From Streptomyces sp. NBC_00285 (GTDB taxonomy: Bacteria; Actinomycetota; Actinomycetes; Streptomycetales; Streptomycetaceae): a stretch of DNA of 64,000 nucleotides. Of this stretch, positions 10,231 through 32,049 are shown piece after piece. The DNA lies in NCBI RefSeq assembly GCF_036174265.1, contig NZ_CP108055.1, positions 7,874,001 to 7,938,000 on the forward strand, given 5' to 3'. The notes under the pieces are model-generated. The model made no database searches and had not been told where the DNA came from. It saw nothing but the letters and a program-made list of their open reading frames with translations. Position 1 is the stretch's first letter, and the number at the start of each line of letters is the position of its first letter. Made by a program: the position numbers and the translations under genes.

Positions 10231-10338
10231 TCACGTCATGGCATCGGGACGCTCCGGCCGTCATCCCGGCCTCCGGCGCCGTGCCATCATCGAGCTTCGA
10301 TCGACCAAGTGGAGTCCGAGTTGGGAGGGCGCGTGGCG

Positions 10339-10842: not shown

Positions 10843-11078
10843 GGCGGGTTTCGACACTCCCGCCCGCCCGGCGCGCACTCCGCCAGAGGGGGATTCCCGC
10901 CCCCGCCGGCGGCCTCGCCCTGTACTGGAGCCCTTCACCTCGCCGGCCGCCTCCGGCCCGTCCTGCGGCGGACGACGCCCCTGCCGAAATGCATCCTGGG
11001 GGCCTTCAGAGGCCGCCCGACCATGTCGAGGTGCGGCTCCGCCGTCCCAGCTCGACCGGGCCCCACCGGCCCGCGCCG

Positions 11079-11090
11079 TACGATCGACAC
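11079..11090 (+). promoter_or_regulatory. Predicted leaderless -10 element of dapF
   Basis: TACGAT (11079-11084), six bases, then ATG 11091, with no Shine-Dalgarno sequence. The same TACGAT-6 nt-start arrangement recurs at 33567. Confidence 0.5.
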
Positions 11091-11960
11091 ATGAGCACCC
11101 GGATCGCCTTCCTCAAGGGTCATGGCACCGAGAACGACTTCGTGATCGTCCCCGACCCCGAGAACACCCTCGACCTCTCACCGGCCGCCGTCGCCGCGAT
11201 CTGCGACCGCCGCGCCGGCATCGGCGGTGACGGTCTGCTCCACGTCGTGCGATCCGTGTCACACCCCGAGGCCGCCCACATGGCGTCCAAGGCCGAGTGG
11301 TTCATGGACTACCGCAACGGAGACGGCTCCATCGCCGAGATGTGCGGCAACGGCGTACGCGTCTTCGCCCGCTACCTCCAGCACGCCGGACACGTCACGG
11401 AGGGCGACCTCGCGGTGGCCACGCGCGGGGGCGTGAAGGCCGTGCACATCGACAAGGCCGGCGATGTCACCGTCGGCATGGGCAAGGCCCTGCTCCTCGA
11501 AGGGGACGTCACGGTGAGCGTCGGCGACCGTGACTGGCCCGCACGGAACGTGAACATGGGCAACCCGCACGCCGTCGCCTTCGTGGACGACCTCGCGCAC
11601 GCCGGTGACCTGTACTCCCCGCCGCCCTTCAGCCCGGCCGCCGCCTACCCGGACGGGGTGAACGTGGAGTTCGTGGTCGACCGCGGCCCCGGCCACGTCG
11701 CCATGCGCGTGCACGAGCGCGGCTCCGGCGAGACCCGTTCGTGCGGCACGGGCGCGTGCGCCGTCGCCGTCGCCACGGCCCGCAGGGACGGCGCCGACCC
11801 CACGGCCACCGGCACGCCGGCGACGTACACCGTGGATGTGCCCGGCGGCACACTGGTGATCACCGAGCGGTCGGACGGCGAGATCGAGATGACCGGCCCC
11901 GCGGTGATCCTCGCCGAGGGCGAGATCGACGCCGACTGGCTCGAAAACGCGGTTCGTTGA
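11091..11960 (+). CDS. dapF: Diaminopimelate epimerase
   Basis: The 289-residue PLP-independent epimerase converts LL- to meso-diaminopimelate. This is the last step before lysine; Streptomyces walls themselves contain the LL form. The two catalytic cysteines are C85 (MCGNGVR) and C218 (TRSCGTGACA), in the usual two-lobe layout, and the N-terminal GTENDFV block is present. The start is supported by the TACGAT spacing and by homology of the N-terminus (IAFLKGHGTENDF). It is a stand-alone gene; about 285 nt separate it from rshA. Confidence 0.96.
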   Translation: MSTRIAFLKGHGTENDFVIVPDPENTLDLSPAAVAAICDRRAGIGGDGLLHVVRSVSHPEAAHMASKAEWFMDYRNGDGSIAEMCGNGVRVFARYLQHAGHVTEGDLAVATRGGVKAVHIDKAGDVTVGMGKALLLEGDVTVSVGDRDWPARNVNMGNPHAVAFVDDLAHAGDLYSPPPFSPAAAYPDGVNVEFVVDRGPGHVAMRVHERGSGETRSCGTGACAVAVATARRDGADPTATGTPATYTVDVPGGTLVITERSDGEIEMTGPAVILAEGEIDADWLENAVR

Positions 11961-14684: not shown

Positions 14685-16235
14685 ATGCCGCTCACCGCCC
14701 GCACCCACGCCGGCCCCGCCCACGTCCATCCCACCCCCTCCGGCCTGCCAGGCCCCGACGCCGCCCGCCGCCGTACCGGAACCGTCCGGCGGCGCAAGGC
14801 GGCCGCGCTGCTCGCCTCGGCCGTCTCCGTCTGCCTGCTCGCCGCGAGCGCCCCGGCCGCGCCGCTCGGCATCGGGGACCGGCTCTTCCCGCACCTGGGC
14901 AACCCGGGCTACGACGTGGCGTCGTACGACCTCTCCTTCACCTATTCCGGCAGCAACAGCAAGCCGCTCACGGCCGTCACCACCATCGACGCCTGGACGA
15001 CCACCGAACTCGACCGCATCAACCTCGACTTCGCCCACGGCGACGTCCAGTCGGTCGAGGTCGACGGCCGGCCCGCGGCGTTCGCCGGCGCCGACGAGGA
15101 CCTCGTGATCACCCCCGACGAACCGCTGCCCGGCGGCAGTTGGATGCGGATCACCGTCCGGCACACCAGTGACCCCGTCTCCGCCGACGACCGCGACGGC
15201 GGCTGGGTGCGCACCACTGACGGGCTCGCCATGGCCAACCAGGCGGACGTCGCTCACCTGGTCTTCCCCTGCAACGACCACCCCTCCGACAAGGCGATGT
15301 TCACCATCCGGGTCACCGCGCCCGACGGCTACACAGCCGTGGCCAACGGTCTGCCCACCGACGTGGACCGGGCCGGCCGGGCGACCACGTGGACATACCG
15401 CACCCAGCACCCCATGGCCACCGAGCTCGCGCAGGTCTCCATCGGCCGCTCCACCGTGCTGCGGCGCGGCGGCCCGCACGGACTGCCCGTCCGGGACGTC
15501 GTGCCCACCAAGGACCGTGCCGAGCTGGAGCCCTGGCTGAAGAAGACTCCGGAGCAGATCGCCTGGATGGAGGGCAAGGTCGGCCCGTACCCGTTCGAGA
15601 CGTACGGCATCCTCATGGCGGCCGCCGACACCGGCTTCGAGCTGGAGACCCAAACCCTCTCCCTCTTCGAGAAGGACCTCTTCACCGAGCCCGCCTACCC
15701 CAAGTGGTACGTCGAGTCGATCATGGTCCATGAGCTCGCCCACCAGTGGTTCGGCGACAGCGTCAGTCCCCGCACCTGGTCCGACCTGTGGCTCAACGAA
15801 GGCCACGCCACCTGGTACGAGGCCCTGTACGCGGAGGAGAAGTCCGGCCGCACCCTGGAGGCCCGCATGAAGGCCGCGTACGGCGTCTCCGACCGCTGGC
15901 GTGCCGCGGGCGGACCGCCCGCCGCCCCCAACCCGCCCAAGCCCGGCCAGAAGATCGGCATCTTCCGCCCGAACGTCTACGACGGCGCCGCACTCGTCCT
16001 GTACGCCCTGCGCCAGGAGATCGGCCGCAGGTCCTTCGAGAACCTGGAGCGGGCCTGGGTGCAGCAGCACCGGGACGGCACGGCGTCGACCGCCGACTTC
16101 GTGCGGCTCGCCTCCGAGATCTCCGGGCGCGACCTCGGCGGCTTCCTCCAGGACTGGCTCTACGGCGAGCAGACCCCGCCGATGCCCGGCCACCCGGACT
16201 GGAAGGCCGTGGGGCCCGCCGCACCGGTGAAATAA
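14685..16235 (+). CDS. Secreted M1-family zinc aminopeptidase
   Basis: The 516-residue protein has an N-terminal RRRKAAALLASAVSVCLLAA signal segment with an extended basic leader, then an APA-type cleavage region near residue 58. The M1 motif HELAH at 349-353 with E372 (HExxH-18-E) binds zinc. The exopeptidase GAMEN equivalent reads GFELE. The protein is shorter than aminopeptidase N because the C-terminal ERAP-like domain is absent, as in other bacterial single-core M1 enzymes. It probably releases N-terminal amino acids outside the cell. It follows rshA by about 190 nt. TAACGG lies 6 nt before the ATG and no ribosome-binding site is seen. Confidence 0.92.
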   Translation: MPLTARTHAGPAHVHPTPSGLPGPDAARRRTGTVRRRKAAALLASAVSVCLLAASAPAAPLGIGDRLFPHLGNPGYDVASYDLSFTYSGSNSKPLTAVTTIDAWTTTELDRINLDFAHGDVQSVEVDGRPAAFAGADEDLVITPDEPLPGGSWMRITVRHTSDPVSADDRDGGWVRTTDGLAMANQADVAHLVFPCNDHPSDKAMFTIRVTAPDGYTAVANGLPTDVDRAGRATTWTYRTQHPMATELAQVSIGRSTVLRRGGPHGLPVRDVVPTKDRAELEPWLKKTPEQIAWMEGKVGPYPFETYGILMAAADTGFELETQTLSLFEKDLFTEPAYPKWYVESIMVHELAHQWFGDSVSPRTWSDLWLNEGHATWYEALYAEEKSGRTLEARMKAAYGVSDRWRAAGGPPAAPNPPKPGQKIGIFRPNVYDGAALVLYALRQEIGRRSFENLERAWVQQHRDGTASTADFVRLASEISGRDLGGFLQDWLYGEQTPPMPGHPDWKAVGPAAPVK

Positions 16236-16380
16236 GGCCGTGACGAGACGCCCCGTACCGTGCGACCATCATCGGGTCGGAGCGGCACGGGGCGCGGGAA
16301 TCTCACGGGGTACTCGTGCGTTGGAAGACATGACCGCCGAATCGGAATCACCGACGACGTATCGACGACGTAAGGACCCA

Positions 16381-17874
16381 ATGACCTCCTCTTCATCCCC
16401 TTCCCAGGACACGCAGCGACTCGCGCACACCTACGCCGAAGGTCTTCGGGCCGATGCCCTGATGGAAGAGGACGTCGCCTGGAGCCACGAGATCGACGGA
16501 GAGCGGGACGGCGACCAGTTCGACCGCTCCGACCGCGCGGCACTGCGCCGCGTAGCCGGCCTCTCCACCGAACTCGAGGACGTCACCGAGGTCGAGTACC
16601 GCCAGCTCCGTCTGGAGCAGGTCGTGCTCGTCGGCGTCTGGACCACCGGGACCGTGCAGGACGCGGACAACTCCCTCGCGGAGCTCGCCGCCCTCGCCGA
16701 GACCGCGGGCGCGGTCGTCCTGGACGGCGTGACCCAGCGTCGCGACAAGCCCGACGCGGCCACCTACATCGGTTCCGGCAAGGCAAACGAGCTGCGGGAC
16801 ATCGTCCTGGAGACCGGCGCGGACACCGTCATCTGCGACGGAGAGCTCAGCCCGGGCCAGCTCATCCACCTCGAAGACGTCGTCAAGGTCAAGGTCATCG
16901 ACCGTACGGCCCTGATCCTCGACATCTTCGCCCAGCACGCCAAGTCCCGTGAGGGCAAGGCGCAGGTCGCGCTCGCGCAGATGCAGTACATGCTGCCGAG
17001 GCTGCGCGGCTGGGGCCAGTCGCTGTCCCGTCAGATGGGCGGCGGCAAGGGCGGCGGCCTCGCCACCCGTGGTCCCGGTGAGACCAAGATCGAGACTGAC
17101 CGGCGTCGGATCCGCGAGAAGATGGCGAAGATGCGCCGGGAGATCGCGGACATGAAGACCGGCCGCGAGATCAAGCGCCAGGAACGCAAGCGCCACAAGG
17201 TGCCGTCCGTCGCCATCGCGGGCTACACCAACGCCGGTAAGTCCTCCCTGCTCAACCGCCTCACGGGCGCGGGAGTCCTGGTCGAGAACGCCCTGTTCGC
17301 GACCCTGGACCCGACCGTCCGCAGGGCGGAGACCCCGAGCGGCCGCCTGTACACGCTGGCCGACACCGTCGGTTTTGTACGGCACCTGCCGCACCACCTG
17401 GTCGAGGCGTTCCGCTCCACCATGGAGGAGGTCGGCGAGTCCGACCTGATCCTGCACGTGGTGGACGGCTCGCACCCGACCCCTGAGGAGCAGCTGGCCG
17501 CTGTCCGCGAGGTGATCAGGGACGTCGGTGCCACCGGCGTGCCCGAGATCGTCGTGATCAACAAGGCCGACGCGGCTGACCCGTTGACGCTCCAGCGGCT
17601 GATGCGGATCGAGACCCGCTCCATCGCGATCTCGGCCCGTACGGGGCAGGGCATCACCGAGCTGCTCGCCCTGATCGACAACGAACTGCCCAGGCCGTCC
17701 GTCGAGATCGAGGCGCTTGTGCCGTACACCCACGGCAAGCTGGTCGCCCGCGCCCACGACGAGGGCGAGGTGATCTCCGAGGAGCACACGGCGGAGGGCA
17801 CCCTGCTCAAGGCGCGGGTGCACGAGGAACTGGCCGCGGACCTTTCCCCGTACGTGCCGGCACCGGTGGCCTGA
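16381..17874 (+). CDS. hflX: GTPase HflX
   Basis: The 497-residue GTPase has the HflX nucleotide-binding N-domain (GAVVLDGVTQRRDKPDAATYIGSGK), a long helical linker (GGGLATRGPGETKIETDRR) and the G domain with G1 GYTNAGKSS, G3 DTVGF and G4 NKAD. HflX splits stalled or hibernating 70S ribosomes after heat or antibiotic stress. I chose ATG 16381 because AAGGA lies just upstream. The frame is open back to 16240, and ATG 16330 is a less likely start. A strong hairpin follows the stop codon. Confidence 0.95.
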   Translation: MTSSSSPSQDTQRLAHTYAEGLRADALMEEDVAWSHEIDGERDGDQFDRSDRAALRRVAGLSTELEDVTEVEYRQLRLEQVVLVGVWTTGTVQDADNSLAELAALAETAGAVVLDGVTQRRDKPDAATYIGSGKANELRDIVLETGADTVICDGELSPGQLIHLEDVVKVKVIDRTALILDIFAQHAKSREGKAQVALAQMQYMLPRLRGWGQSLSRQMGGGKGGGLATRGPGETKIETDRRRIREKMAKMRREIADMKTGREIKRQERKRHKVPSVAIAGYTNAGKSSLLNRLTGAGVLVENALFATLDPTVRRAETPSGRLYTLADTVGFVRHLPHHLVEAFRSTMEEVGESDLILHVVDGSHPTPEEQLAAVREVIRDVGATGVPEIVVINKADAADPLTLQRLMRIETRSIAISARTGQGITELLALIDNELPRPSVEIEALVPYTHGKLVARAHDEGEVISEEHTAEGTLLKARVHEELAADLSPYVPAPVA

Positions 17875-18046: not shown

Positions 18047-19282
18047 TCAGCGACCCGCGAACTTCCCGCTGACCGAGTCGTACACGCCCTCGGCCACCTC
18101 ACCCAGCCGTGGTCCCGCCAGCCAGCCCGCGCTCACCGGGCCGATCGAGGTGTTGGACACCAGCGCCGGCTTACCGTCCGCACCCGCCGCGACCCAGCCT
18201 CCACCCGAGGAACCACCGGTCATCGTGCAGCCGATGCGGTACATCGTCGGTTCCGAGGCGTTGATCGACAGCCGTCCCGGCCTGTCCTGGCACTGGTAGA
18301 GCGTCTCCCCGTCGAACGGCGCCGCCGCCGGATACCCGGATGCCGTGATGCGCTCGACCCGCGGCACCGCCGGAGCGCTGAAGTTCACCGGCAGGGCCGA
18401 ACCGACCGTCTCCTCCAGCGACTTGCCGGTGCCGCCTTCCTCCGGTGTCACATGAATGACGGCGAAGTCGTACGGGGCGCCGTCCCCACCGGTCGGACCC
18501 CCCTGCCCGATCCACTGATCCGAGGTCTGGGCCCAGTCGGCCCACCAGACGCCGTAAGGAGCCAGCTCTTTCGCGGTCGCTCCCGCCAACTGCCCGGCAG
18601 ACAGGGCCTGGTCGTTGTACGACGGGACGAAGGCGATGTTGCGGTACCAGCCCCCGCTGCGGCCCGCGTGCACACAATGCCCCGCCGTCCACGCCAGGTT
18701 GGACTTCCCCGGGTGGGCCGGGTCCTGCACGACAGTCGCCGAGCAGACCATCGTGCCCTCCGGGGAGTCGAAGAACACCTTGCCCGCTTCGGGGACGCTG
18801 TCGTGGTAGGCGGGCGACGCGGCCTTCGCGTCCACCGGTGCCGGCTCCGGGTCGGTGACACCCTGGTCGCCGGAGAGGTCGCTCTCCCGGACACCCCGGT
18901 CGGGATCCTCCGCCCCGCGCATTCGGTCTGGGTCCCACAGCCCCTCGATGATCGGGTTGATGTAGTCCTGGGCCTCCCGCAGCCAGTCGTCCCTGTCCCA
19001 GTTCTTCCAGGCGCCGTCCTTCCACTCGTCGACGTCGATCCCGTGCTCTTTGAGCCGGTCCCTGATGTCGTCGGGAATCGTGATCTTGCCGTCGCCCCCG
19101 GACGCGGCGGGGGCGGAGGGGGAGGCCTGCACTTTCGGGTCCGTGGCGTCCGAGCCGCAGGCGGTGGCGGTCAGGGTCAGCAGCGAGGTGAAGGCCAAGG
19201 CGGCCAGCACGGGGGAGATTCTGCGGCGCGCGCCCCTTTGGCTCTCGCCGCGAGCGGTCAACGACAGCGGTTCGGATCGCAT
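18047..19282 (-). CDS. Secreted trypsin-like serine peptidase lipoprotein
   Basis: The 411-residue protein has a basic start, a hydrophobic segment and a lipobox (LTATACGS, Cys near 42), so it is predicted to be lipid-anchored outside the membrane. An acidic, Trp-rich stretch (about 70-130) precedes a chymotrypsin-fold domain with TAGHC, the Asp in PYDFAVIHV and the serine in TGGSSGGG. The Ser context (GSSGGGW) is like Streptomyces V8/glutamyl-type peptidases rather than GDSGGP trypsins. A strong GGGGGAGG ribosome-binding site precedes the ATG. It is transcribed away from the siderophore genes. Confidence 0.9.
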   Translation of the reverse strand: MRSEPLSLTARGESQRGARRRISPVLAALAFTSLLTLTATACGSDATDPKVQASPSAPAASGGDGKITIPDDIRDRLKEHGIDVDEWKDGAWKNWDRDDWLREAQDYINPIIEGLWDPDRMRGAEDPDRGVRESDLSGDQGVTDPEPAPVDAKAASPAYHDSVPEAGKVFFDSPEGTMVCSATVVQDPAHPGKSNLAWTAGHCVHAGRSGGWYRNIAFVPSYNDQALSAGQLAGATAKELAPYGVWWADWAQTSDQWIGQGGPTGGDGAPYDFAVIHVTPEEGGTGKSLEETVGSALPVNFSAPAVPRVERITASGYPAAAPFDGETLYQCQDRPGRLSINASEPTMYRIGCTMTGGSSGGGWVAAGADGKPALVSNTSIGPVSAGWLAGPRLGEVAEGVYDSVSGKFAGR

Positions 19283-19676
19283 GCTCTGCCTCCCCCTGGT
19301 GTGGGCGAACAGGGCGCCAGGGCCTGCGACTTACCGCAGACCTCCCGCGAGTTCGCCTTGCGGCACCGCGCCTTGGAACGGCATCACACACTATGCGCCC
19401 GCTGTGGGTGACTTCCGACGGAATCGCAACAGTTTCGTCACGCCAAAGATCTCCGGACAACCCGTAACCCGGTGAGCGGTCCGGGGTTGGTAGCGGTGGG
19501 GGCCTGCTGCCGAGCAGACGGGTCGATCCTCCGCGCCCCAATCCCCGGAGATTTCCAGACATCAGGGCATCGGAGCGCCGAGATGTCGAGCAAAGCCTCG
19601 CGGGGTTCCGTATGCCGGGGCGGGTGAGTCCGCGAAGGAACCGCTTGACCCTGCACAGCGCGACGACGGGAGAACC
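19283..19676. other. 394-nt divergent intergenic region (peptidase / siderophore operon)
   Basis: It holds promoters for both directions. I looked for the 19-bp iron box typical of DmdR/DtxR regulators (TTAGGTTAGGCT... inverted repeat) and did not find one. No small gene or long palindrome stands out. Confidence 0.4.
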
Positions 19677-21251
19677 ATGGCCGTGACCGAGACCGCGCCC
19701 GGGGAGGCCATGACGGGACACACATCCGTCGAGCATCCATCGGCCACCCGCGCCGCCCACGAGGGGATCCTGCGGCGCCAGTCGGCCCGTGAGTCGGCGG
19801 CCCGCACTTACGCCCGAGCCCTCCCGATCGTCCCCGTCCGCGCACGCGGGCTGACCATCGAGGGCGCCGACGGACGCCGCTACCTGGACTGCCTCTCGGG
19901 TGCGGGCACCCTGGCCCTGGGACACAACCACCCCGTCGTCCTCGAAGCGATCCGCAAGGTCCTCGACTCGGGCGCGCCTCTGCACGTCCTCGACCTCGCC
20001 ACCCCGGTCAAGGACGCCTTCACCACCGAACTGTTCCGCACCCTGCCACCCGGTCTCGCCGACCACGCACGCGTGCAGTTCTGCGGGCCGGCCGGCACGG
20101 ACGCGGTGGAGGCCGCCTTCACACTGGTACGGGCCGCGACCGGCCGCAACGGACTGCTTGCCTTCGCCGGCGCCTACCACGGGATGACCTCCGGAGCACT
20201 TGAAGCATCCGGCGACGCCCTTGACGTACGGGTTGCCCGGCTGCCCTATCCACAGGAGTACCGCTGCCCCTTCCGCATCGGCGGCCGGCTCGGCGCCGAA
20301 CTCTCCGCTCGCTGGACCGAATCCGTCCTCGACGATCCCAAGTCCGGCGTACCGCTGCCCGCCGGGATGATCCTCGAACCCGTGCAGGGCGAGGGCGGGG
20401 TCCTGCCGGCCCCGGACGAATGGATGCGGCGCATCCGGCAGATCACGGCGGACCGCTCGATCCCGCTGATCGTCGACGAGGTCCAGACGGGAGTCGGCCG
20501 CACCGGCGCCTTCTGGGCCGTGGACCACAGCGGCATCACCCCCGACGTGATGGTCCTCTCCAAGGCCATCGGCGGCAGCCTGCCCCTCGCCGTCGTGGTC
20601 TACCGCGACGATCTCGACGTCTGGGAGCCCGGCGCCCACGCCGGTACCTTCCGCGGCAACCAACTCGCCATGGCCGCGGGTACGGCCACCATGGCCTACG
20701 TCCGCGAGAACGCCCTCACCGAACGTGCGGCCACACTCGGCGCACGCATGCTGGACCAACTGCGCGGGCTGGGCCGGGACTTCACTGTGATCGGTGATGT
20801 GCGAGGGCGGGGCTTGATGATCGGCGTGGAGATGGTGGAGCCGGAGGGGCGGGGCCCCGCCAGGACCGGTGAGTCCGGTGAGTCCGGTGGGGCTGGTGGG
20901 AGTGACGGCTCTGGTGAGTTGGGAAGCCCGGTGGGGCTGGGGGGTGCTGGTGTTGTGGAGGCCGCGGTGATGAGGGGCACTGCCCCCTCGCCTCGCCCTG
21001 CTTCTCCGGAGCTTGCCGCCGCCGTCCAGCGGGAGTGCCTGCGGCGGGGACTGATCGTCGAACTCGGTGGCCGTCACGCGAGCGTTGTGCGCCTCCTCCC
21101 GCCCTTGACCATCACCGACGAACAGGCGACCGCTGTCCTCGACCGGCTCGCCGACGCCGTGGCAGCGGTGGCCCGTGGCGGTGGTCCTGGTGGTGGTCCT
21201 GGTGGTGGTTCGGGTGGTGCTTCTGGCGGTGGTTCCTGTGGCGGGAGGTGA
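19677..21251 (+). CDS. Diaminobutyrate-2-oxoglutarate aminotransferase-like class III PLP enzyme (siderophore precursor)
   Basis: The 524-residue fold-type I aminotransferase has the PLP lysine K296 (LSKAIGGSLPL), the EVQTGVGRTG block and GPAGTDAVEAAF, and resembles RhbA/DAT-type enzymes making 2,4-diaminobutyrate. Two oddities make it long. One is a Gly/Ser-rich insert near residues 398-425 in the small domain; the other is a Gly-rich tail of about 25 residues at the C-terminus. The start is ATG 19677 with GGGAGA upstream. It is first in the operon with the IucA/IucC synthetase and an acyltransferase. A different omega-amino donor substrate is possible. Confidence 0.88.
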   Translation: MAVTETAPGEAMTGHTSVEHPSATRAAHEGILRRQSARESAARTYARALPIVPVRARGLTIEGADGRRYLDCLSGAGTLALGHNHPVVLEAIRKVLDSGAPLHVLDLATPVKDAFTTELFRTLPPGLADHARVQFCGPAGTDAVEAAFTLVRAATGRNGLLAFAGAYHGMTSGALEASGDALDVRVARLPYPQEYRCPFRIGGRLGAELSARWTESVLDDPKSGVPLPAGMILEPVQGEGGVLPAPDEWMRRIRQITADRSIPLIVDEVQTGVGRTGAFWAVDHSGITPDVMVLSKAIGGSLPLAVVVYRDDLDVWEPGAHAGTFRGNQLAMAAGTATMAYVRENALTERAATLGARMLDQLRGLGRDFTVIGDVRGRGLMIGVEMVEPEGRGPARTGESGESGGAGGSDGSGELGSPVGLGGAGVVEAAVMRGTAPSPRPASPELAAAVQRECLRRGLIVELGGRHASVVRLLPPLTITDEQATAVLDRLADAVAAVARGGGPGGGPGGGSGGASGGGSCGGR

Positions 21252-21711
21252 TAGCAGCGTCGAGGCCGGAACCTGCGTGACGGGGACGAGCGGGCGCAGT
21301 AGCCGACGGATGGTGCTTGCTGCCGGTGCCGGTGCCGGTGCCGGTGCCGGAGCCGGAGCCGGTGTTTGTTGGTCTCCCAGGGCTGAGGGCCAAGGCGCTG
21401 ACGTTTCCTGGAGTCGGGGTGTTAGGGGATGAAGAGGCAGCAGCGGCCGGTGCGTTGGCGGCATCGGCGTGGGAAACCAGGGCCGTAGCCACACCTTCAG
21501 CCGGAGTGGCGGTTCCTCTCGAAACCGATTGGTCAGCCGCATGCGGCTGCGCATGCCGCGTACCGGTGCCTCTGAACATGCGCTGTCTTCACGCTGGTTG
21601 TCCAACGAGCCCATCCCGACCACCACTCACCTCCACTCACCTGCTCATCCGCCGTCGGCCCCTCCGAGGCGGAACCACCCCGAAGCTGAACCACCCCGAG
21701 GAACTCCGAAC
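21252..21711. other. 460-nt repeat-rich gap inside the siderophore operon
   Basis: No convincing gene was found. Frames here encode only low-complexity peptides. A run of seven GCCGGT-type hexamers occupies 21322-21363. Such a long untranslated gap inside an operon is unusual, and an internal promoter is possible. Confidence 0.5.
21322..21363 (+). repeat. Hexanucleotide tandem repeat (GCCGGT)x7, two variant units
   Basis: Seven consecutive 6-nt units: five GCCGGT and two GCCGGA (fifth and sixth). This simple repeat lies in the untranslated part of the siderophore operon and could vary in copy number between strains. Confidence 0.85.
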
Positions 21712-23694
21712 TTGAACACCACCCCCGCCGCCGAGGGCCGCGCCTCCACACACCCGAGCAACTTCTCCGGCACCGTCCCCTCTTCGCAGCGACTCCCTCG
21801 ACCCCACCACACCCCGTCCCAGGGTGGCCCGCCTGAACAGGAGCGCTTGAGTAGCGTCACCGCCGACCTCCTGGATCACCCCGATCCGCACACCGTGGCC
21901 GAAGCTGCGACCGTGGAGAACCTGCTGCGCTGCTGGGTCCGCGAAGCCGGCTTCCCTGCGCCCGACAACGGCACCCTCCGCATCCCCCTCCCCGCGAGCG
22001 GCATCACCCTTCTCGTCCCCGTCCGCTACTGGTCCCCGACGGGGTGGCACCGCTTCGGCCTCCCTCGTCTCGCCGGTGCCCCGGAGCAGGCCCCGTCGGC
22101 CGACGCGGTCACCGTCGCAGCGCTGCTGACCCGTGAGTCAGCGGTGGCGTCCACTGCCACCTCGGGCACCGAACTCACTGCCCGCGTCGCCGACTCCGTC
22201 CGCCGCACTGCCACCTTCGTCCGCGAACGCCGCAAGTACCCCGACGACGGCCCGGATCTCTTCCTGACCGCCGAGCAGGCACTCGTCCTCGGCCACCCGC
22301 TGCACCCGGCCCCGAAGAGCCGCGAAGGCCTCTCCGAAGCCGAAGGTGCTTCCTACTCACCCGAGTTGCGAGGCTCCTTTCCTCTGCACTGGCTCGCAGT
22401 CGATCCCTCCCTCCTCGCCGCGGACTCGGCCTGGACCGAACGTGGTCGACCCGTCACCGCCGCTCAGCTCACCCGGCGCCTGGCCGGACCCGACCTGCAA
22501 TTGCCCGACGGCCACACCGCTCTGCCGCTGCATCCCTGGCAGCTCCGGGAGGTCCGGCACCGCCCCGAAACCGCCCCGCTGTTCGATGCCGGGCTGCTCC
22601 GGGACCTCGGTGCCCATGGCTCCTCGTGGCATCCGACCTCCTCCGTCCGCACGGTCCATCGCTCCGGTGCCCCTGCCATGCTCAAACTCTCGCTGGGCCT
22701 GCGCATCACCAATTCCCGCCGTGAGAACCTCCGCAAAGAGCTACACCGTGGTGTCGAGGTGCACCGGCTCCTGCGGGCGGGTCTGTCCACGGAGTGGCAG
22801 GCGGTCCACCCCGCATTCGACATCGTCCGCGACCCTGCTTGGCTTGCCGTCGACGTGCCGGACGGCAACCCCGCACCGGGTCTCGACGTGATGATCCGGC
22901 ACAACCCGTTCCTCCTGTCGAGCGACGCCTCCTGCATCGCCGGTCTGGTGTCTCCCCGTCCCCAAGCCCGCCTTGGTGCCACTGCTGGTCGCCCGGAAAC
23001 GGACCGCCCAGAAACAAACCGTGTGGACGCGGACCGTCAGGCCACGGACCGGGCGAACTCGAATCCCCTGGTCTGGCGGTCCCGGCTCTCCGAGGTCGTC
23101 GGGCGTCTCACCGCCCGGACTGGCCGCCCGCGGGGAGCCGTCGCCGCCGAGTGGTTCCTGCGCTATCTCGAACAGGTCGTCCGCCCGGTGCTGTGGCTCG
23201 ACGGGGAGGCCGGGATCGCGCTGGAAGCGCACCAGCAGAACACCTTGGTCCTGCTGGACGCCGACGGCTGGCCCGTAGGCGGTCGCTATCGCGACAACCA
23301 GGGCTACTACTTCCGCGAGTCCCGACGCGCGGAGCTGGAGGCCCGGCTGCCCGGTATCGGCGAGCACAGCGACACCTTCGTCTCCGACGAGGTCTCTGAC
23401 GAGCGCTTCGCCTACTACCTGGCGATCAACAACGTCCTCGGCCTCATCGGAGCCTTCGGCTCCCAGCGTCTGGCCGACGAACGGCTGCTGCTCGCAGCCT
23501 TCCGTCGCTTTCTCGGCGATGCGGCCTCCGGGCCCACCCGACTGCGCACCACCCTCCCCGGCCGTCTGCTCGACTCGCCCGTCCTGCGCTGCAAGGCCAA
23601 TCTGCTGACCCGCGTCCACGGCCTGGACGAACTCGTCGGCCCGGTCGACACCCAGTCCGTCTACGTCACCATCGCCAACCCCCTTCACATCTGA
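21712..23694 (+). CDS. NIS siderophore synthetase, IucA/IucC family
   Basis: The protein has 660 residues from the proposed TTG start. Adenylation motifs are intact: HPWQ (about 274-277), HPTSSVRTV, KLSLGLRITNSR (from about 325), EAHQQN (505-510) and RDNQGYYFRES. NIS synthetases activate a carboxylic acid such as citrate or succinate with ATP and condense it with an amine or hydroxylamine. TTG 21712 has GAGGAA 8 nt upstream; the frame is open to 21469, but that stretch is Pro/Arg-rich and unlike the family. A polar insert (PETDRPETNRVDADRQATD, about 424-442) looks disordered. The start position is the main uncertainty. Confidence 0.88.
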   Translation: MNTTPAAEGRASTHPSNFSGTVPSSQRLPRPHHTPSQGGPPEQERLSSVTADLLDHPDPHTVAEAATVENLLRCWVREAGFPAPDNGTLRIPLPASGITLLVPVRYWSPTGWHRFGLPRLAGAPEQAPSADAVTVAALLTRESAVASTATSGTELTARVADSVRRTATFVRERRKYPDDGPDLFLTAEQALVLGHPLHPAPKSREGLSEAEGASYSPELRGSFPLHWLAVDPSLLAADSAWTERGRPVTAAQLTRRLAGPDLQLPDGHTALPLHPWQLREVRHRPETAPLFDAGLLRDLGAHGSSWHPTSSVRTVHRSGAPAMLKLSLGLRITNSRRENLRKELHRGVEVHRLLRAGLSTEWQAVHPAFDIVRDPAWLAVDVPDGNPAPGLDVMIRHNPFLLSSDASCIAGLVSPRPQARLGATAGRPETDRPETNRVDADRQATDRANSNPLVWRSRLSEVVGRLTARTGRPRGAVAAEWFLRYLEQVVRPVLWLDGEAGIALEAHQQNTLVLLDADGWPVGGRYRDNQGYYFRESRRAELEARLPGIGEHSDTFVSDEVSDERFAYYLAINNVLGLIGAFGSQRLADERLLLAAFRRFLGDAASGPTRLRTTLPGRLLDSPVLRCKANLLTRVHGLDELVGPVDTQSVYVTIANPLHI

Positions 23695-23733
23695 GGAACA
23701 TGACCCACCCCGCCTCTTGAGAGGAGCGCCCCC

Positions 23734-24582
23734 GTGTCTCCCACCGACGCGCGTGCAGACGCCCATTCCACCCCCTTCGCCGACGTCGGCATCCGAACCG
23801 GTACCTCTCCGGACCGCACAGCGGACAGCCAGGCCCGGGGTACCGGTCGCGGCTCCTACAACGAGGACACCCTGGACCTGCGTCTGCCCGAGGATCTCCT
23901 CGCACTCGTCAAGACCGACGGCCCAGGCCCAGGTCCAGGTTCAGGAGGAAGCGGGTTCCAGAGCTGGGGCGTCGGCACCGCCCCGCCCGGCTCGCTCGAC
24001 CCGACCGACGGTGACCTCCTCGACGGCATCGTCGACTGGGGACCGATCACCACCCCGGCAGGCGCGTTCCAACTCGTGCCCGTAACCGTCGAGCGGGATG
24101 TGCCACTCGTCTGCCGTTGGATGAACGACCCTGTCGTCACCAGGTTCTGGGAGCTGGCCGGGCCCCAGCACGTGACGGAGAACCATCTGCGACCCCAGCT
24201 CGCCGGGGACGGCCGCAGCATGCCCTGCCTCGGAGTGCTGGAGGGCAACCCGATGAGCTACTGGGAGATCTACCGGGCAGACCTCGATCCGTTGGCCCGC
24301 CACTATCCGGCCAGACCGCACGACACCGGTATCCACCTCCTCATCGGTACCGGCACCGATCGCGGGCGCGGTCTCGGCAGCACCCTTGTGAAAGCTGTCG
24401 CCGATCTCGTCCTCGACAAGCGACCGGCCTGTGCCCGCGTCGTCGCGGAGCCCGACCTTCGCAACATCCTGTCCATCGCCGCCTTTCTGAGCGCAGGTTT
24501 CCGTCTCTCCGCCGAGGTGGACCTGCCCGACAAGCGGGCGGCCCTCTTGGTCCGAGACCGGTCTCTGCGCGATCTGATATAG
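23734..24582 (+). CDS. IucB/RhbD-like siderophore N-acyltransferase (GNAT)
   Basis: The 282-residue protein has a disordered N-terminal third, including a GPGPGPGSGGSG linker near residue 63. A GNAT domain follows (FQLVPVTVERDVPLVCRWMNDPVV ... GRGLGSTLVKAVADL acetyl-CoA loop ... AEPDLRNILSIAAFLSAGFR). It resembles the acyltransferases that acylate N-hydroxylated diamines in aerobactin and rhizobactin synthesis. The GTG start is preceded by GAGAGGAG, and the gene begins 39 nt after the synthetase. No hydroxylase accompanies it here, so the acceptor may be a non-hydroxylated amine or come from another locus. Confidence 0.85.
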   Translation: MSPTDARADAHSTPFADVGIRTGTSPDRTADSQARGTGRGSYNEDTLDLRLPEDLLALVKTDGPGPGPGSGGSGFQSWGVGTAPPGSLDPTDGDLLDGIVDWGPITTPAGAFQLVPVTVERDVPLVCRWMNDPVVTRFWELAGPQHVTENHLRPQLAGDGRSMPCLGVLEGNPMSYWEIYRADLDPLARHYPARPHDTGIHLLIGTGTDRGRGLGSTLVKAVADLVLDKRPACARVVAEPDLRNILSIAAFLSAGFRLSAEVDLPDKRAALLVRDRSLRDLI

Positions 24583-24895
24583 CCGTGCGTCATCGTGCAA
24601 TCACTTTTGGTACACCGCTCGCGTCGAATTGGTTCCGGTCTCGGAAGAAGTTTTTTTTGCGACGCCATCGGAGTCCCTGACTCTCACTGCCCTCTGGTGA
24701 GATATCGGTCATTTACGGCCAACAAGGGACTGGTCTCGGTACCGGCCGGATCGGGCCCGGTCCAAAGCGAGCCAAGTCGCCCCGGACCGGCACCCCCATC
24801 CGCTACCCCACCACGGAGCTCCCGGTCTTGATCCCGCTCGTCGTCACCGCCTTGATCACCCTGATGTCAGTGCCGGGCCGTAGGGTGGTCGCGCT
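24583..24895. other. 313-nt interval downstream of the siderophore genes
   Basis: No gene is apparent. A run of eight T (about 24650-24657) could end the siderophore transcript, though no long stem precedes it. A TAGGGT (24881-24886) lies 9 nt before the helicase ATG. Confidence 0.4.
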
Positions 24896-26914
24896 ATGAC
24901 GAAGCCCTCACTCCCCGAACTCCTGCATGCTGCCGTCACTGCCGTCGGCGGTGCGGAGCGCCCCGGCCAGGTGACCATGGCCGAATCCGTTGCGGACGCG
25001 ATCGACGACAGTTCCCACCTGCTCGTGCAGGCCGGCACCGGTACCGGAAAGTCGCTGGGCTATCTCGTGCCCGCGCTTGCACACGGGGAGCGGGTCGTCG
25101 TCGCGACGGCGACCCTGGCCCTCCAGAGACAGCTGGTAGAGCGCGACCTGCCGCGCACGGTCGAGGCGCTGCACCCGCTGCTGCGCCGCCGCCCGGAGTT
25201 CGCGATGCTCAAGGGCCGGTCGAACTACCTGTGTCTGCACCGGCTTCACGAGGGTGTGCCGCAGGACGAGGAGGAGGGACTCTTCGACCAGTTCGAGGCG
25301 GCTGCCCCCACCAGCAAGTTGGGCCAGGATCTGCTCCGGCTGCGGGACTGGTCGCAGGACACCGAGACCGGTGACCGTGACGACCTCACGCCGGGCGTGT
25401 CCGACCGAGCCTGGGCGCAGATCTCCGTGTCCTCCCGCGAGTGTCTGGGCGCCACGAAGTGCGCCTACGGCGCCGAGTGCTTCGCCGAGATGGCCCGCGA
25501 GCGCGCCAAGCTCGCCGAGGTCGTCGTCACCAATCACGCGCTGCTTGCGATCGACGCCATCGAAGGTGCGCCGGTCCTGCCGCAGCACGAGGTATTGATC
25601 GTCGACGAGGCGCACGAGCTGGTCTCCCGGGTCACCGGCGTCGCCACCGGTGAACTCACTCCCGGCCAGGTCAACCGGGCGGTCCGCCGCGCCGCGAAAC
25701 TTGTCAACGAGAAGGCCGCCGACCAGCTCCAGACAGCCGCCGAGGGCTTCGAACGGCTGATGGAACTCGCCCTGCCCGGTCGACTCGAGGAGATCCCGGA
25801 GGACCTCGGGTATGCGCTCATGGCGCTGCGCGATGCCGCCCGCACGGTCATCTCCGCGATCGGCGCGACCCGCGACAAGTCGGTCCAGGACGAGGACGCG
25901 GTCCGCAAACAGGCCCTGGCCTCCGTGGAGTCGGTGCACGACGTGGCGGAGCGGATCACGAACGGCTCGGAGTGGGACGTCGTCTGGTACGAACGGCATG
26001 ACCGTTTCGGAGCCTCCTTGCGGGTGGCTCCCATGTCGGTCTCAGGTCTGCTGCGGGAGAAGTTGTTCGCGGACCGCTCAGTGGTCCTCACCTCGGCGAC
26101 GTTGAAGCTGGGCGGCGACTTCAACGGCGTGGGCGCGTCCCTGGGTCTCGCCCCGGAGGGGACCGAGGGCGAGGACCTGCCGAAGTGGAAGGGGCTCGAC
26201 GTGGGTTCGCCCTTCGACTACCCCAGGCAGGGCATCCTCTACGTCGCCAAGCATCTGTCGCGCCCTGCGCGCGACGGCGACCGCGTGGACATGCTCGACG
26301 AACTGACCGAGCTCATCCAGGCGGCCGGCGGTCGAACCCTGGGCTTGTTCTCGTCCATGAAGGCCGCCCAGTTGGCCGCGGAGGAACTGCGGTCCCGCAT
26401 TCCGGAGTTCCCGATCCTCCTCCAGGGCGAGGAGACCCTCGGTGAGCTGATCAAGAACTTCGCGGCCGACCCTAAGACCTGTCTCTTCGGCACGCTGTCG
26501 CTCTGGCAGGGCGTCGACGTCCCCGGCCCCAGCTGTCAGCTGGTCGTCATGGACAAGATCCCGTTCCCGCGCCCCGACGACCCTCTGATGAGCGCTCGTC
26601 AGAAGGCGGTGGAAGAGGCGGGCGGCAACGGCTTCATGGCGGTCGCGGCCACCCACGCCGCCCTGCTGATGGCCCAGGGCGCAGGCCGCCTGGTCCGCGC
26701 CACGGGAGACCGTGGCGTCGTCGCCGTACTGGACCAGCGGCTGGCCACCGCGCGATACGGCAGCTATCTGAAGGCGTCCCTGCCGGACTTCTGGTACACC
26801 ACGGACCGTAACCAGGTCCGCAGGTCGCTCACGGCGATCGATGCCGCGGCGAAGTCGATCGAGGCGGCGGACCTTGTGGCCGAAGCCGAGAAGGCGCAGG
26901 CGGAAACAGAATGA
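24896..26914 (+). CDS. DinG/XPD-type Fe-S ATP-dependent DNA helicase
   Basis: The 672-residue superfamily 2 helicase has Walker A AGTGTGKSLGY near the N-terminus, DEAH (IVDEAHELVSR), motif III LTSATLK and motif VI-like QGAGRLVRATGDRG. Four cysteines, C113, C183, C189 and C195, are placed as in the iron-sulfur domain of DinG/XPD 5'-3' helicases. These unwind R-loops and damaged DNA and are often SOS-induced, but I see no SOS box upstream. It is convergent with lexA. There is no ribosome-binding site; TAGGGT 9 nt before the ATG suggests a leaderless or nearly leaderless message. Confidence 0.93.
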   Translation: MTKPSLPELLHAAVTAVGGAERPGQVTMAESVADAIDDSSHLLVQAGTGTGKSLGYLVPALAHGERVVVATATLALQRQLVERDLPRTVEALHPLLRRRPEFAMLKGRSNYLCLHRLHEGVPQDEEEGLFDQFEAAAPTSKLGQDLLRLRDWSQDTETGDRDDLTPGVSDRAWAQISVSSRECLGATKCAYGAECFAEMARERAKLAEVVVTNHALLAIDAIEGAPVLPQHEVLIVDEAHELVSRVTGVATGELTPGQVNRAVRRAAKLVNEKAADQLQTAAEGFERLMELALPGRLEEIPEDLGYALMALRDAARTVISAIGATRDKSVQDEDAVRKQALASVESVHDVAERITNGSEWDVVWYERHDRFGASLRVAPMSVSGLLREKLFADRSVVLTSATLKLGGDFNGVGASLGLAPEGTEGEDLPKWKGLDVGSPFDYPRQGILYVAKHLSRPARDGDRVDMLDELTELIQAAGGRTLGLFSSMKAAQLAAEELRSRIPEFPILLQGEETLGELIKNFAADPKTCLFGTLSLWQGVDVPGPSCQLVVMDKIPFPRPDDPLMSARQKAVEEAGGNGFMAVAATHAALLMAQGAGRLVRATGDRGVVAVLDQRLATARYGSYLKASLPDFWYTTDRNQVRRSLTAIDAAAKSIEAADLVAEAEKAQAETE

Positions 26915-29154: not shown

Positions 29155-32049
29155 ATGACAGAGACGGCGAGCGGTCCGGCACGGAGTTCCCGCGCCAAGA
29201 CCACGAAGGCGACCAAGGGCCTGCGTATCGAGCGCATCCACACCACCCCCGGCGTGCATCCGTACGACGAGGTGGTCTGGGAGCGCCGTGACGTCGTCAT
29301 GACCAACTGGCGCGACGGCTCGGTCAACTTCGAGCAGCGCGGCGTCGAGTTCCCCGGCTTCTGGTCGGTGAACGCGGTCAACATCGTCACCAGCAAGTAC
29401 TTCCGCGGTGCCGTCGGCACCCCCCAGCGCGAGGTGAGCCTCAAGCAGCTCATCGACCGCATCGTGAAGACGTACCGGAAGGCCGGCGAGGACTACAAGT
29501 ACTTCGCCTCGCCCGCCGACGCGGAGATCTTCGAGCACGAACTGGCGTACGCCCTCCTGCACCAGATCTTCAGCTTCAACAGCCCCGTGTGGTTCAACGT
29601 GGGTACGCCCCAGCCGCAGCAGGTCTCGGCCTGCTTCATCCTGGCCGTCGACGACTCCATGGAGTCGATCCTCGACTGGTACAAGGAAGAGGGCATGATC
29701 TTCAAGGGCGGCTCCGGCGCCGGCCTGAACCTCTCCCGCATCCGCTCCTCCAAGGAGCTGCTGTCCTCGGGCGGTAACGCCTCCGGTCCGGTCTCCTTCA
29801 TGCGTGGTGCCGACGCCTCCGCAGGAACGATCAAGTCGGGTGGCGCCACGCGTCGCGCCGCCAAGATGGTCATCCTCGACGTCGACCACCCCGACATCGA
29901 GGACTTCATCGAGACCAAGGTGAAGGAGGAGGAGAAGATCCGCGCCCTGCGTGACGCGGGCTTCGACATGGACCTGGGCGGCGACGACATCACGTCCGTC
30001 CAGTACCAGAACGCCAACAACTCGGTCCGCGTGAACGACACGTTCATGAAGGCCGTGGAGACGGGCGCCAAGTTCGGCCTGACGTCCCGCATGACCGGCG
30101 AGGTCATCGAGGAGGTCGAGGCCAAGACCCTGTTCCGCAAGATGGCCGAGGCCGCCTGGGCCTGCGCCGACCCGGGCATTCAGTACGACGACACCATCAA
30201 CCACTGGCACACCTGCCCGGAGTCCGGCCGCATCAACGGCTCGAACCCGTGCAGCGAGTACATGCACCTGGACAACACGTCCTGCAACCTCGCCTCGCTG
30301 AACCTGATGAAGTTCCTCAAGGACGACAGCAAGGGCCACCAGTCCTTCGAGGTCGAGCGCTTCGCGAAGGTCGTCGAACTCGTCATCACCGCGATGGACA
30401 TCTCCATCTGCTTCGCGGACTTCCCGACCCAGAAGATCGGCGAGAACACGCGCGCGTTCCGCCAGCTCGGCATCGGCTACGCCAACCTCGGCGCCCTGCT
30501 GATGGCGACCGGCCACGCGTACGACTCGGACGGCGGCCGCGCCCTGGCCGGCTCCATCACCTCCCTGATGACCGGCACGTCGTACAAGCGTTCCGCCGAA
30601 CTCGCCGCTGTCGTCGGCGCGTACGACGGCTACGCGCGCAACGCGCAGCCGCACCTGCGCGTCATGAAGCAGCACGCTGACGAGAACACCAAGGCCGTCC
30701 GCATCGACGACCTGGACTCGCCGATCTGGGCCGCCGCCACGGAGGCCTGGCAGGACGTGGTCCGCCTCGGTGAGAAGAACGGCTTCCGCAACGCGCAGGC
30801 GTCGGTCATCGCCCCGACCGGCACCATCGGTCTCGCGATGTCCTGCGACACCACCGGTCTTGAGCCCGACCTGGCACTGGTCAAGTTCAAGAAGCTGGTC
30901 GGCGGCGGCTCGATGCAGATCGTCAACGGCACGGTTCCGCAGGCCCTGCGCCGCCTGGGCTACCAGGAGGAGCAGATCGAGGCGGTCGTCGCCCACATCG
31001 CCGAGAACGGCAACGTGATCGACGCCCCCGGCCTCAAGCACGAGCACTACGAGGTGTTCGACTGCGCCATGGGCGAGCGCTCCATCTCCGCGATGGGCCA
31101 CGTCCGCATGATGGCCGCCATCCAGCCGTGGATCTCCGGAGCCCTGTCCAAGACGGTCAACCTGCCGGAGACGGCGACGGTCGAGGACGTCGAAGAGGTC
31201 TACTTCGAGGCATGGAAGATGGGCGTCAAGGCGCTCGCCATCTACCGTGACAACTGCAAGGTCGGCCAGCCTCTCTCCGCCAAGACCAAGGAGAAGGAGA
31301 AGACCGCGGTCACGGCGAAGGCCGAGGAGACGATCCGTAGCGCGGTCGAGAAGGTCGTCGAGTACCGTCCGGTCCGCAAGCGCCTCCCCAAGGGCCGTCC
31401 CGGCATCACGACGTCCTTCACGGTCGGCGGCGCCGAGGGCTACATGACGGCCAACTCCTACCCGGACGACGGTCTCGGCGAGGTCTTCCTGAAGATGTCC
31501 AAGCAGGGCTCCACCCTCGCGGGCATGATGGACGCTTTCTCCATCGCCGTCTCGGTGGGCCTGCAGTACGGCGTGCCGCTGGAGACGTACGTCTCGAAGT
31601 TCACCAACATGCGCTTCGAGCCGGCCGGTATGACGGATGACCCGGACGTGCGGATGGCGCAGTCGATCGTCGACTACATCTTCCGCCGCCTGGCGCTGGA
31701 CTTCCTTCCCTTCGAGACGCGCTCCGCGCTCGGCATCCACTCCGCCGAAGAGCGTCAGCGCCACCTTGAGACCGGCTCCTACGAGCCGACCGAGGAGGAG
31801 GTCGACGTCGAGGGGCTGGCCCAGTCGGCGCCGCGCACCCAGGAGCTGAAGGCCGTCGTCACCCCGAAGGTTGAGGTCGTGGCGGCCGAACCGGCTCCGA
31901 AGCAGGTCCACACCAGCGCTGAGCTGGTGGAGATGCAGTTGGGCATCCAGGCCGACGCCCCGCTGTGCTTCTCGTGCGGTACGAAGATGCAGCGGGCCGG
32001 TTCCTGCTACATCTGCGAGGGCTGCGGCTCGACCAGTGGTTGCAGCTGA
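29155..32049 (+). CDS. nrdJ: Class II adenosylcobalamin-dependent ribonucleotide reductase
   Basis: The 964-residue vitamin B12-dependent enzyme reduces ribonucleotides regardless of oxygen. Recognisable blocks are FNSPVWFNVG, QQVSACFILAVDDS, SGGNASGPVSFM, the NPCSEYMHLDNTSCNLASLNL active-site region and VIAPTGTIGLAMSCDTTG. A C-terminal Cys-rich tail (CFSCGTKMQRAGSCYICEGCGSTSGCS over residues 940-964) is expected to shuttle electrons and may bind zinc. GGGAGG lies upstream of the ATG. It is controlled with nrdR. A 15-bp hairpin follows. Confidence 0.97.
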   Translation: MTETASGPARSSRAKTTKATKGLRIERIHTTPGVHPYDEVVWERRDVVMTNWRDGSVNFEQRGVEFPGFWSVNAVNIVTSKYFRGAVGTPQREVSLKQLIDRIVKTYRKAGEDYKYFASPADAEIFEHELAYALLHQIFSFNSPVWFNVGTPQPQQVSACFILAVDDSMESILDWYKEEGMIFKGGSGAGLNLSRIRSSKELLSSGGNASGPVSFMRGADASAGTIKSGGATRRAAKMVILDVDHPDIEDFIETKVKEEEKIRALRDAGFDMDLGGDDITSVQYQNANNSVRVNDTFMKAVETGAKFGLTSRMTGEVIEEVEAKTLFRKMAEAAWACADPGIQYDDTINHWHTCPESGRINGSNPCSEYMHLDNTSCNLASLNLMKFLKDDSKGHQSFEVERFAKVVELVITAMDISICFADFPTQKIGENTRAFRQLGIGYANLGALLMATGHAYDSDGGRALAGSITSLMTGTSYKRSAELAAVVGAYDGYARNAQPHLRVMKQHADENTKAVRIDDLDSPIWAAATEAWQDVVRLGEKNGFRNAQASVIAPTGTIGLAMSCDTTGLEPDLALVKFKKLVGGGSMQIVNGTVPQALRRLGYQEEQIEAVVAHIAENGNVIDAPGLKHEHYEVFDCAMGERSISAMGHVRMMAAIQPWISGALSKTVNLPETATVEDVEEVYFEAWKMGVKALAIYRDNCKVGQPLSAKTKEKEKTAVTAKAEETIRSAVEKVVEYRPVRKRLPKGRPGITTSFTVGGAEGYMTANSYPDDGLGEVFLKMSKQGSTLAGMMDAFSIAVSVGLQYGVPLETYVSKFTNMRFEPAGMTDDPDVRMAQSIVDYIFRRLALDFLPFETRSALGIHSAEERQRHLETGSYEPTEEEVDVEGLAQSAPRTQELKAVVTPKVEVVAAEPAPKQVHTSAELVEMQLGIQADAPLCFSCGTKMQRAGSCYICEGCGSTSGCS

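Follow-up and report, generated by a model that had tools for sequence, protein, structure and literature searches.

The three genes at positions 19,677 to 24,582 of a 64,000-nucleotide stretch of Streptomyces sp. NBC_00285 (contig NZ_CP108055.1, positions 7,874,001 to 7,938,000; hereafter the window) encode a diaminobutyrate aminotransferase (AT), an IucA-like synthetase (NIS) and an N-acyltransferase (GNAT). With a probability of roughly 0.8, this trio is the reduced half of a rhizobactin/schizokinen-type siderophore pathway that is encoded in two places of the genome. A decarboxylase (DDC) and an N-hydroxylase (MO) lie together as a pair about 5 Mb away, and complete as well as differently split operons of these families are found in related genera. 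The trio is most likely a shortened form of a six-gene operon that also comprises DDC, MO and a second, type C synthetase (NIS2). From the sequences we infer the substrate specificities, the joint working of both halves in this organism and the product, which is predicted to be citrate joined to N-acyl-N-hydroxy-1,3-diaminopropane. In the following, L numbers denote fetched loci and G numbers genomes; G000 is the genome of the window and C1 the contig carrying it.

A decarboxylase-hydroxylase pair distant from the trio

The initial annotation, made from the window alone, had noted that neither a hydroxylase nor a decarboxylase is encoded near the trio and had proposed to search the whole genome for such genes. 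Whole-genome searches confirmed the absence, with zero matches of the hydroxylase family PF13434 and the decarboxylase family PF00282 in the window (C1:7874001-7938000), and located both families elsewhere. The absence is not an assembly gap, as G000 (10.3 Mb, 2 contigs) is 100% complete. Genome-wide, PF13434 has nine matches, three of them strong (<1e-100), and PF00282 has four. One hydroxylase and one decarboxylase belong to the des locus (C1:4169044-4173254), and one other site holds both families, namely the DDC-MO pair, which is accompanied by neither a synthetase nor an acyltransferase. The neighbours of the pair, named by eye, are nucleotidase and pyruvate kinase genes to one side and a gene for an M1 aminopeptidase to the other. 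Among the NCBIfam models DDC scores best with the RhbB diaminobutyrate decarboxylase (287 bits); in the PDB its top match carries the annotation diaminobutyrate decarboxylase (9.2e-64), followed by a desferrioxamine enzyme (1.2e-55). The closest PDB relatives of MO are diamine hydroxylases (putrescine N-hydroxylase, 1.9e-92), with ornithine and lysine hydroxylases being much more distant. Of 30 Streptomyces loci, 29 have MO next to DDC, and the remaining one is truncated by a contig end. No description of this partner locus was found in the passages, titles and beginnings of abstracts of open-licence papers that the literature search covered.

Two explanations had been offered for the missing steps. 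That they come from another locus is now well supported by the pair, while a different amine conjugate as product gained no support.

Unsplit and differently split operons in other genera

Eighteen synthetase loci were fetched from 16 other genera of the family; a second NIS copy of one genome and a 10-base stub obtained alongside are not counted among them. At the site between hflX and the yoaA-type helicase gene, which border the trio in the window, four other genera carry the six-gene order AT-DDC-NIS-GNAT-MO-NIS2 (L207, L209, L210, L220; in L207 a carbon-nitrogen hydrolase gene at 14892-15722 follows NIS2). At the same site L208 has the five genes AT-DDC-NIS-GNAT-MO without NIS2, and L219 and L215 have NIS-GNAT-MO-NIS2 (the contig of L215 ends beyond NIS). 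A five-gene operon AT-DDC-MO-NIS-GNAT without the hflX/yoaA landmarks is found in L217. In the other 10 of the 18 loci neither DDC nor MO is present at the site, which carries AT-NIS-GNAT-NIS2 (L211, L212, L213, L218), NIS-GNAT-NIS2 (L214, L216, L223) or AT-NIS-GNAT (L221, L222, L224), and for all ten a DDC-MO pair lies elsewhere in the genome. This remote pair is preceded by AT in L236 and L237 (both from one genus) and adjoins pyk in L229-L235; L238 shows neither landmark in the stretch covered, and a pyk-adjoining pair also occurs in L239 and L243. G261 is cut at another point, with NIS-GNAT-MO-NIS2 at the site (L242) and AT-DDC elsewhere (L241, where a second MO lies 1.4 kb away in the opposite direction). 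Among 93 genomes of other genera searched, 86 have a listed place for the synthetase, with the best hydroxylase within 10 kb in 43, elsewhere in 41 (among them G187 with a match of only 45%) and unlisted in two, one of which, G163, has the hydroxylase in place (L220).

Quick trees were computed with DesA and DesB as the chosen roots. In these, pair-type DDC and pair-type MO each form one clade with SH-aLRT support of 100 (27 of 48 DDC rows and 26 of 51 MO rows; L243 is labelled as another genus there, yet stems from a Streptomyces genome). L217 and L146 fall in both clades. The DDC clade also takes in L147 and L245, both near NIS, and the MO clade the second MO of L241. The trio of the window and the distant pair are linked because the full operon occupies the same site in other genera, because the splits are complementary and because pair-type DDC and MO stand within the operon of L217.

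The trio and its surroundings

Coordinates are collected in Table 1. AT scores 462.2 bits against the NCBIfam model for diaminobutyrate transaminase (TIGR00709, cut-off 401.6), in the PDB it is nearest to diaminobutyrate transaminases (best 1.4e-75), and its C-terminal tail is glycine-rich. NIS is assigned to type A by sequence, as its closest PDB match is IucA (4.3e-52), followed by AcsD (2.3e-20), with IucC far weaker (9.1e-10); type A synthetases use citrate. The motifs that can be aligned with IucA (GHPLHPAPKS, LHPWQ, PTSSVRT, KLSLGLRITNSRREN, EAHQQNTLV and YRDNQG) are present, in agreement with the initial annotation, which had judged them intact. The true start of NIS probably lies later than that of the open reading frame, perhaps at the TTG at 21847. 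GNAT begins 39 bases past the end of NIS and has MbtK (4.6e-36) as its closest PDB sequence.

Table 1. Positions of the trio, the distant pair and the neighbouring genes (window numbering unless a contig or locus is named)
Feature	Position	Strand	Support or remark
AT, class III aminotransferase, L-2,4-diaminobutyrate type (RhbA-like)	19677..21251	+	Pfam Aminotran_3 2.6e-82
NIS, IucA/RhbC-like synthetase	21469..23694 (open reading frame)	+	IucA_IucC 3.6e-64, FhuF 4.8e-34
GNAT, IucB/RhbD/MbtK-type N-acyltransferase	23734..24582	+	Acetyltransf_8 3.6e-45
DDC-MO two-gene unit	C1:2853053-2855865 = L022:10053-12865	-	genes overlap by four bases
hflX, left landmark, outside the pathway	16240..17874	+	NCBIfam TIGR03156 432 bits
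YoaA/DinG-type helicase, right landmark, outside the pathway	24896..26914	+	NF053712 471 bits, below cut-off 680
nrdJ	29155-32049		
Divergent 411-aa protein, no known Pfam family	18047-19282	-	lipoprotein-like start, GGSSGGG (by eye)

The position of hflX beside the trio is kept in relatives. Between AT and the likely start of NIS lie about 600 bases (21251-21847) with runs of GGTGCC/GGAGCC-like repeats, and because of this repeat-bearing gap both genes may be on separate transcripts. A scan of 19200-25000 gave no promoter and two terminators, shuffled sequences giving 1.4. The protein encoded divergently at 18047-19282 adjoins the trio in 69 of 80 named relatives and is duplicated in some genomes; its GGSSGGG stretch is, by eye, as in trypsin-like proteases.

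Distribution and selection within Streptomyces

The 80 named Streptomyces trio loci are the best 80 of 572 confirmed ones, viewed with flanks of up to 10 kb a side. GNAT is present in all 80, the yoaA helicase in 79 and AT in 70, and neither DDC nor MO stands beside the trio in any of them. Besides five loci that lack AT with hflX in view, three more (L055, L095 and L106) have an AT match that is short or weak. A synthetase match was obtained in 140 of 150 Streptomyces genomes and in 121 of 121 family genomes from 17 genera. A decarboxylase match below 1e-80 was found in 131 of the 150, among which the best matches of G043, G044 and G114 (51-53%) sit in separate operons. The trio is gone despite intact flanks in G014, G027, G032, G132 and G142, and G092 retains only an AT-like gene; four of these six genomes lack a pair-type MO. 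At the pair sites, the stretch of G010 is partly masked and those of G097 and G099 end at contig edges. Co-loss of synthetase and decarboxylase in all 10 synthetase-less genomes was considered; at the sites, contigs end in G028, G050, G130 and G139, and MO is kept in G014 and G032. It is not relied on, as the association is not significant on the tree (see below).

Operons unlinked to this site also occur in Streptomyces. One kind consists of an ornithine-decarboxylase-like gene, AT, DDC, NIS, MO, NIS2 and a glutamine-synthetase-like gene (e.g., L138, L139), another has the order NIS2-DDC-NIS-GNAT-MO (L142, L144, L145). In L137-L140, L147 and L240 such separate AT/DDC/NIS/MO/NIS2 operons with the ornithine-decarboxylase-like and glutamine-synthetase-like genes are iron-boxed and have no GNAT match, and their product is possibly different, unacylated or otherwise acylated.

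The retained pathway genes are under purifying selection. Against eight chosen relatives without NIS2, the median ratio of non-synonymous to synonymous substitution rates (dN/dS) is 0.16 for AT, 0.18 for NIS and 0.36 for GNAT, compared with 0.18 for hflX and 0.05 for the YoaA gene, and against seven relatives it is 0.28 for both DDC and MO. NIS is not relaxed, as the value of 0.18 stands against 0.24 in the comparison with NIS2-bearing relatives. Thus the earlier judgement that the locus is probably no relic holds as far as selection on the genes is concerned, but the locus is nevertheless a shortened six-gene operon.

The second synthetase

NIS2, whose closest PDB sequence is DesD (1.9e-98), is found at 67% identity or more in 81 of 150 Streptomyces genomes. 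In 75 of these the place of the synthetase is listed as well, and NIS2 lies within 6 kb in 70 and on another contig in five. Among the 80 named relatives it stands beside GNAT in seven (L073 ends too soon to tell). G000 has no match; apart from NIS, it encodes DesD and two short, divergent members of the IucA/IucC family. These two adjoin each other as IucA/IucC-FhuF proteins of 495 and 517 amino acids (L024:8652-10139, minus strand, and 10214-11767, plus strand; C1 at about 8.497-8.500 Mb), and the hydroxylase and decarboxylase families have no match in their vicinity. As a candidate for the missing type C enzyme this pair (C1:8497147-8499275) was set aside because the one protein compared (L024:8652-10139) matches, in the PDB, only AsbB (4.6e-10) and IucA (1.3e-06). 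An arrangement with one synthetase recurs in the five-gene operons of L208 and L217, which have no NIS2 alongside.

Iron boxes and expression

Iron boxes were scanned with a consensus at up to three, four or five mismatches. That none precedes the trio, as had been remarked from the window, is confirmed: at up to three mismatches there are no sites in the 64 kb of the window and none in the pair locus (L022), and the same scan detects two sites at the des locus of G000. At up to five mismatches, within about 500 bases upstream of genes, a box is found in four of five five- or six-gene loci and in two of three AT-DDC(-MO) loci. At this setting there is none in 69 Streptomyces trio loci, upstream of NIS in 77, or in eight loci that carry the trio or four genes at the site (the Streptomyces plasmid record L228 and seven loci of other genera). 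The remote pairs have one in 33 Streptomyces loci and one in 10 of the set from other genera (which includes L243), and random windows give 1 in 1500. The missing box thus goes with the split, the box being frequent in unsplit operons and near-absent in split Streptomyces loci. Each of the 11 loci L137-L147 has at least one site (up to four mismatches) somewhere in the stretch. A region conserved before AT may pertain to the gene running divergently at 18047-19282. Beside the gene set of this genome, neither a regulator nor a receptor gene was recognised. Elsewhere, a two-mismatch iron box at position 10773 of L026 lies just upstream of a gene for a 923-residue fusion of a penicillin-amidase domain with Acetyltransf_8 (L026:7985-10756, minus strand), which resembles the desferrioxamine-tailoring desG/desH genes.

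An equivalent three-gene locus in S. coelicolor had been mentioned in the initial annotation; judged by synteny, this is probably sco5799-sco5801. In this organism a comparison of second with first mycelium at 24, 48 and 72 h gives log2 changes of 0.4, 1.3 and 1.8 for SCO5799 and 0.8, 1.8 and 1.3 for SCO5801; for the des-cluster gene SCO2782 they are 1.1, -3.7 and -3.2 (PMC3610822, Table 4). The profile of SCO5799 and SCO5801 fits a loss of iron control, the source not being an iron experiment. SCO5800 and SCO5799 are also among the changed genes in a copper study (PMC6414726). As a speculation that we consider rather doubtful, the Streptomyces pathway might have left iron control and joined development. 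Late in growth it would then yield a citrate hydroxamate of a new, mono-substituted kind with a role other than scavenging under iron starvation, e.g., handling metals or serving as a signal in the aerial mycelium and the spores. Against a loss of iron control, over-expression of SCO3201 lowers sco5799-sco5801 together with the coelichelin and desferrioxamine genes (PMC7324645).

Predicted pathway and alternative explanations

Steps are assigned on the basis of the families and of the gene order common to rhb. AT would convert aspartate semialdehyde to L-2,4-diaminobutyrate, from which the distant DDC would form 1,3-diaminopropane. Hydroxylation of one amine by the distant MO would give N-hydroxy-diaminopropane, GNAT would acylate the hydroxylamine to an N-acyl hydroxamate and NIS would join the free amine to citrate by an amide bond. 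The second arm would normally be attached by a type C NIS2; here DesD may act in trans, NIS may act twice or the product may be a mono-amide.

Several observations weigh against a two-place pathway. The 287 bits of DDC lie under the strict cut-off of 900 of the RhbB model. AT is missing with hflX in view in five named loci (L031, L056, L057, L083, L096). G014 and G032 keep a pair-type MO with the synthetase gone from the intact site; conversely, the synthetase is kept without a pair-type MO in G008, G079 (78% complete), G081 and G121, the last of which has a 53% MO near a 54% NIS2. In G131 and G051 MO is kept without a DDC match. Joint loss of trio and pair within Streptomyces is not significant (five independent pairs, median p 0.625) in a test on an nrdJ tree of 30 chosen genomes, i.e., the 19 of 150 without a decarboxylase match below 1e-80 and 11 of the 131 with one; three genomes were excluded as unknown, G130 was scored as lacking both despite its site being out of view, and G079 was scored as MO-less. 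No upstream motif is common to trio and pair, the commonest 8-mers before AT and DDC being different, and a transporter was identified at neither locus. Regarding G131 and G051, MO lies between its usual neighbours with DDC gone (L201:8369-8501 and L200:8468-9401), which is an apparent partial loss of the pair.

Some of these points would suit a pair that serves another pathway, e.g., toward a compound derived from N-hydroxy-diaminopropane, with the trio obtaining its hydroxylated amine otherwise or making something else: MO outlasts the synthetase in G014 and G032, a shared motif is missing, and L146 has an additional, solitary DDC-MO pair. This is nonetheless unlikely, as other genera have homologues of DDC and MO within one operon at the site of the trio and the differently split gene sets are complementary. 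Even less probable is a supply from the des locus, in which N-hydroxycadaverine made by DesA and DesB would be turned into an aerobactin- or arthrobactin-like compound by GNAT and NIS of the window. desABCD is complete in G000 and a few genomes have the trio without the pair, but the diaminobutyrate made by AT would be superfluous to a cadaverine route, a dedicated RhbB-like decarboxylase is present and the unsplit operon has its own DDC and MO. We give as little credence to a decaying relic without product. The missing iron box and NIS2, the absence of AT in five named loci, the loss of DDC in G131 and G051 and the dN/dS of GNAT, the highest of the set, would agree with decay, whereas open frames and motifs are intact, the values for AT, NIS, DDC and MO range from 0.16 to 0.28 and the synthetase is matched in nearly all Streptomyces and all family genomes searched. 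That the trio needs no partner and joins an amine to citrate or another acid in a conjugate other than a hydroxamate is hardly credible despite the absence of an iron box and of a hydroxylase beside all 80 named loci, since hydroxylase and decarboxylase occupy the same site in other genera and G000 retains DDC and MO as a unit.

Taken as a pathway in two places, the partner locus turns an orphan trio into a full predicted pathway and shows which genes belong together for deletion. Cluster-by-cluster genome mining can overlook pathways with split operons. Across genera, the various splits offer a compact natural series in which to follow how a biosynthetic operon breaks up and loses its regulator site.

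Comparison with known systems

In the passages of PMC7324645 and PMC3224560 that concern sco5799-sco5801, the three genes are given as a putative siderophore locus of the siderophore-synthetase type, with neither product nor partner locus, and in the accessible literature the Streptomyces trio locus figures only as a putative siderophore cluster. Among solved structures, IucA of aerobactin biosynthesis (iucABCD) is nearest to the window NIS. Aerobactin is lysine-based and is made without an aminotransferase or decarboxylase.

The desABCD set likewise has a decarboxylase, a hydroxylase, an acyltransferase and an NIS synthetase, and its copy in G000 has iron boxes. Desferrioxamine is based on lysine/cadaverine and uses a type C synthetase (PMC9854754, PMC6011815). 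In contrast, the window NIS resembles the type A enzyme IucA and accompanies a diaminobutyrate aminotransferase; DesD is not among its PDB matches and no gene of the DesA or DesB families lies in the window. Schizokinen is composed of citrate and two N-acetyl-N-hydroxy-1,3-diaminopropane arms. It shares the citrate core and the building block predicted here, but G000 has no dedicated enzyme for the second condensation and its product is a prediction.

Closest is the rhizobactin 1021 system rhbABCDEF of Sinorhizobium meliloti (L227, NZ_CP021821.1); relatives of all six of its enzymes occur in this genome or in the sister genera. For its hydroxylase RhbE, the substrate listed is 1,3-diaminopropane (PMC7347517). 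The likeness of the trio to rhbA, rhbC and rhbD, from which the initial annotation had started, is borne out by identities of 50% (AT), 37% (NIS) and 36% (GNAT), to which DDC (41%), MO (39%) and the NIS2 of L155 (40%) can be added. Unlike rhb, the set of G000 is divided over two loci 5 Mb apart and has neither an RhbF-like synthetase nor iron boxes. Because it lacks the single operon and the dedicated type C synthetase, it is not filed as a strict member of the rhb type; with the reservations given above, it is taken to work in the rhb manner. AT, DDC, MO, GNAT and a type A NIS are all present in G000. The single operon in rhb order exists in L207, L209, L210 and L220, and the annotated order rhbA-rhbB-rhbC-rhbD-basC-rhbF is identical to this unsplit six-gene form of the sister genera.

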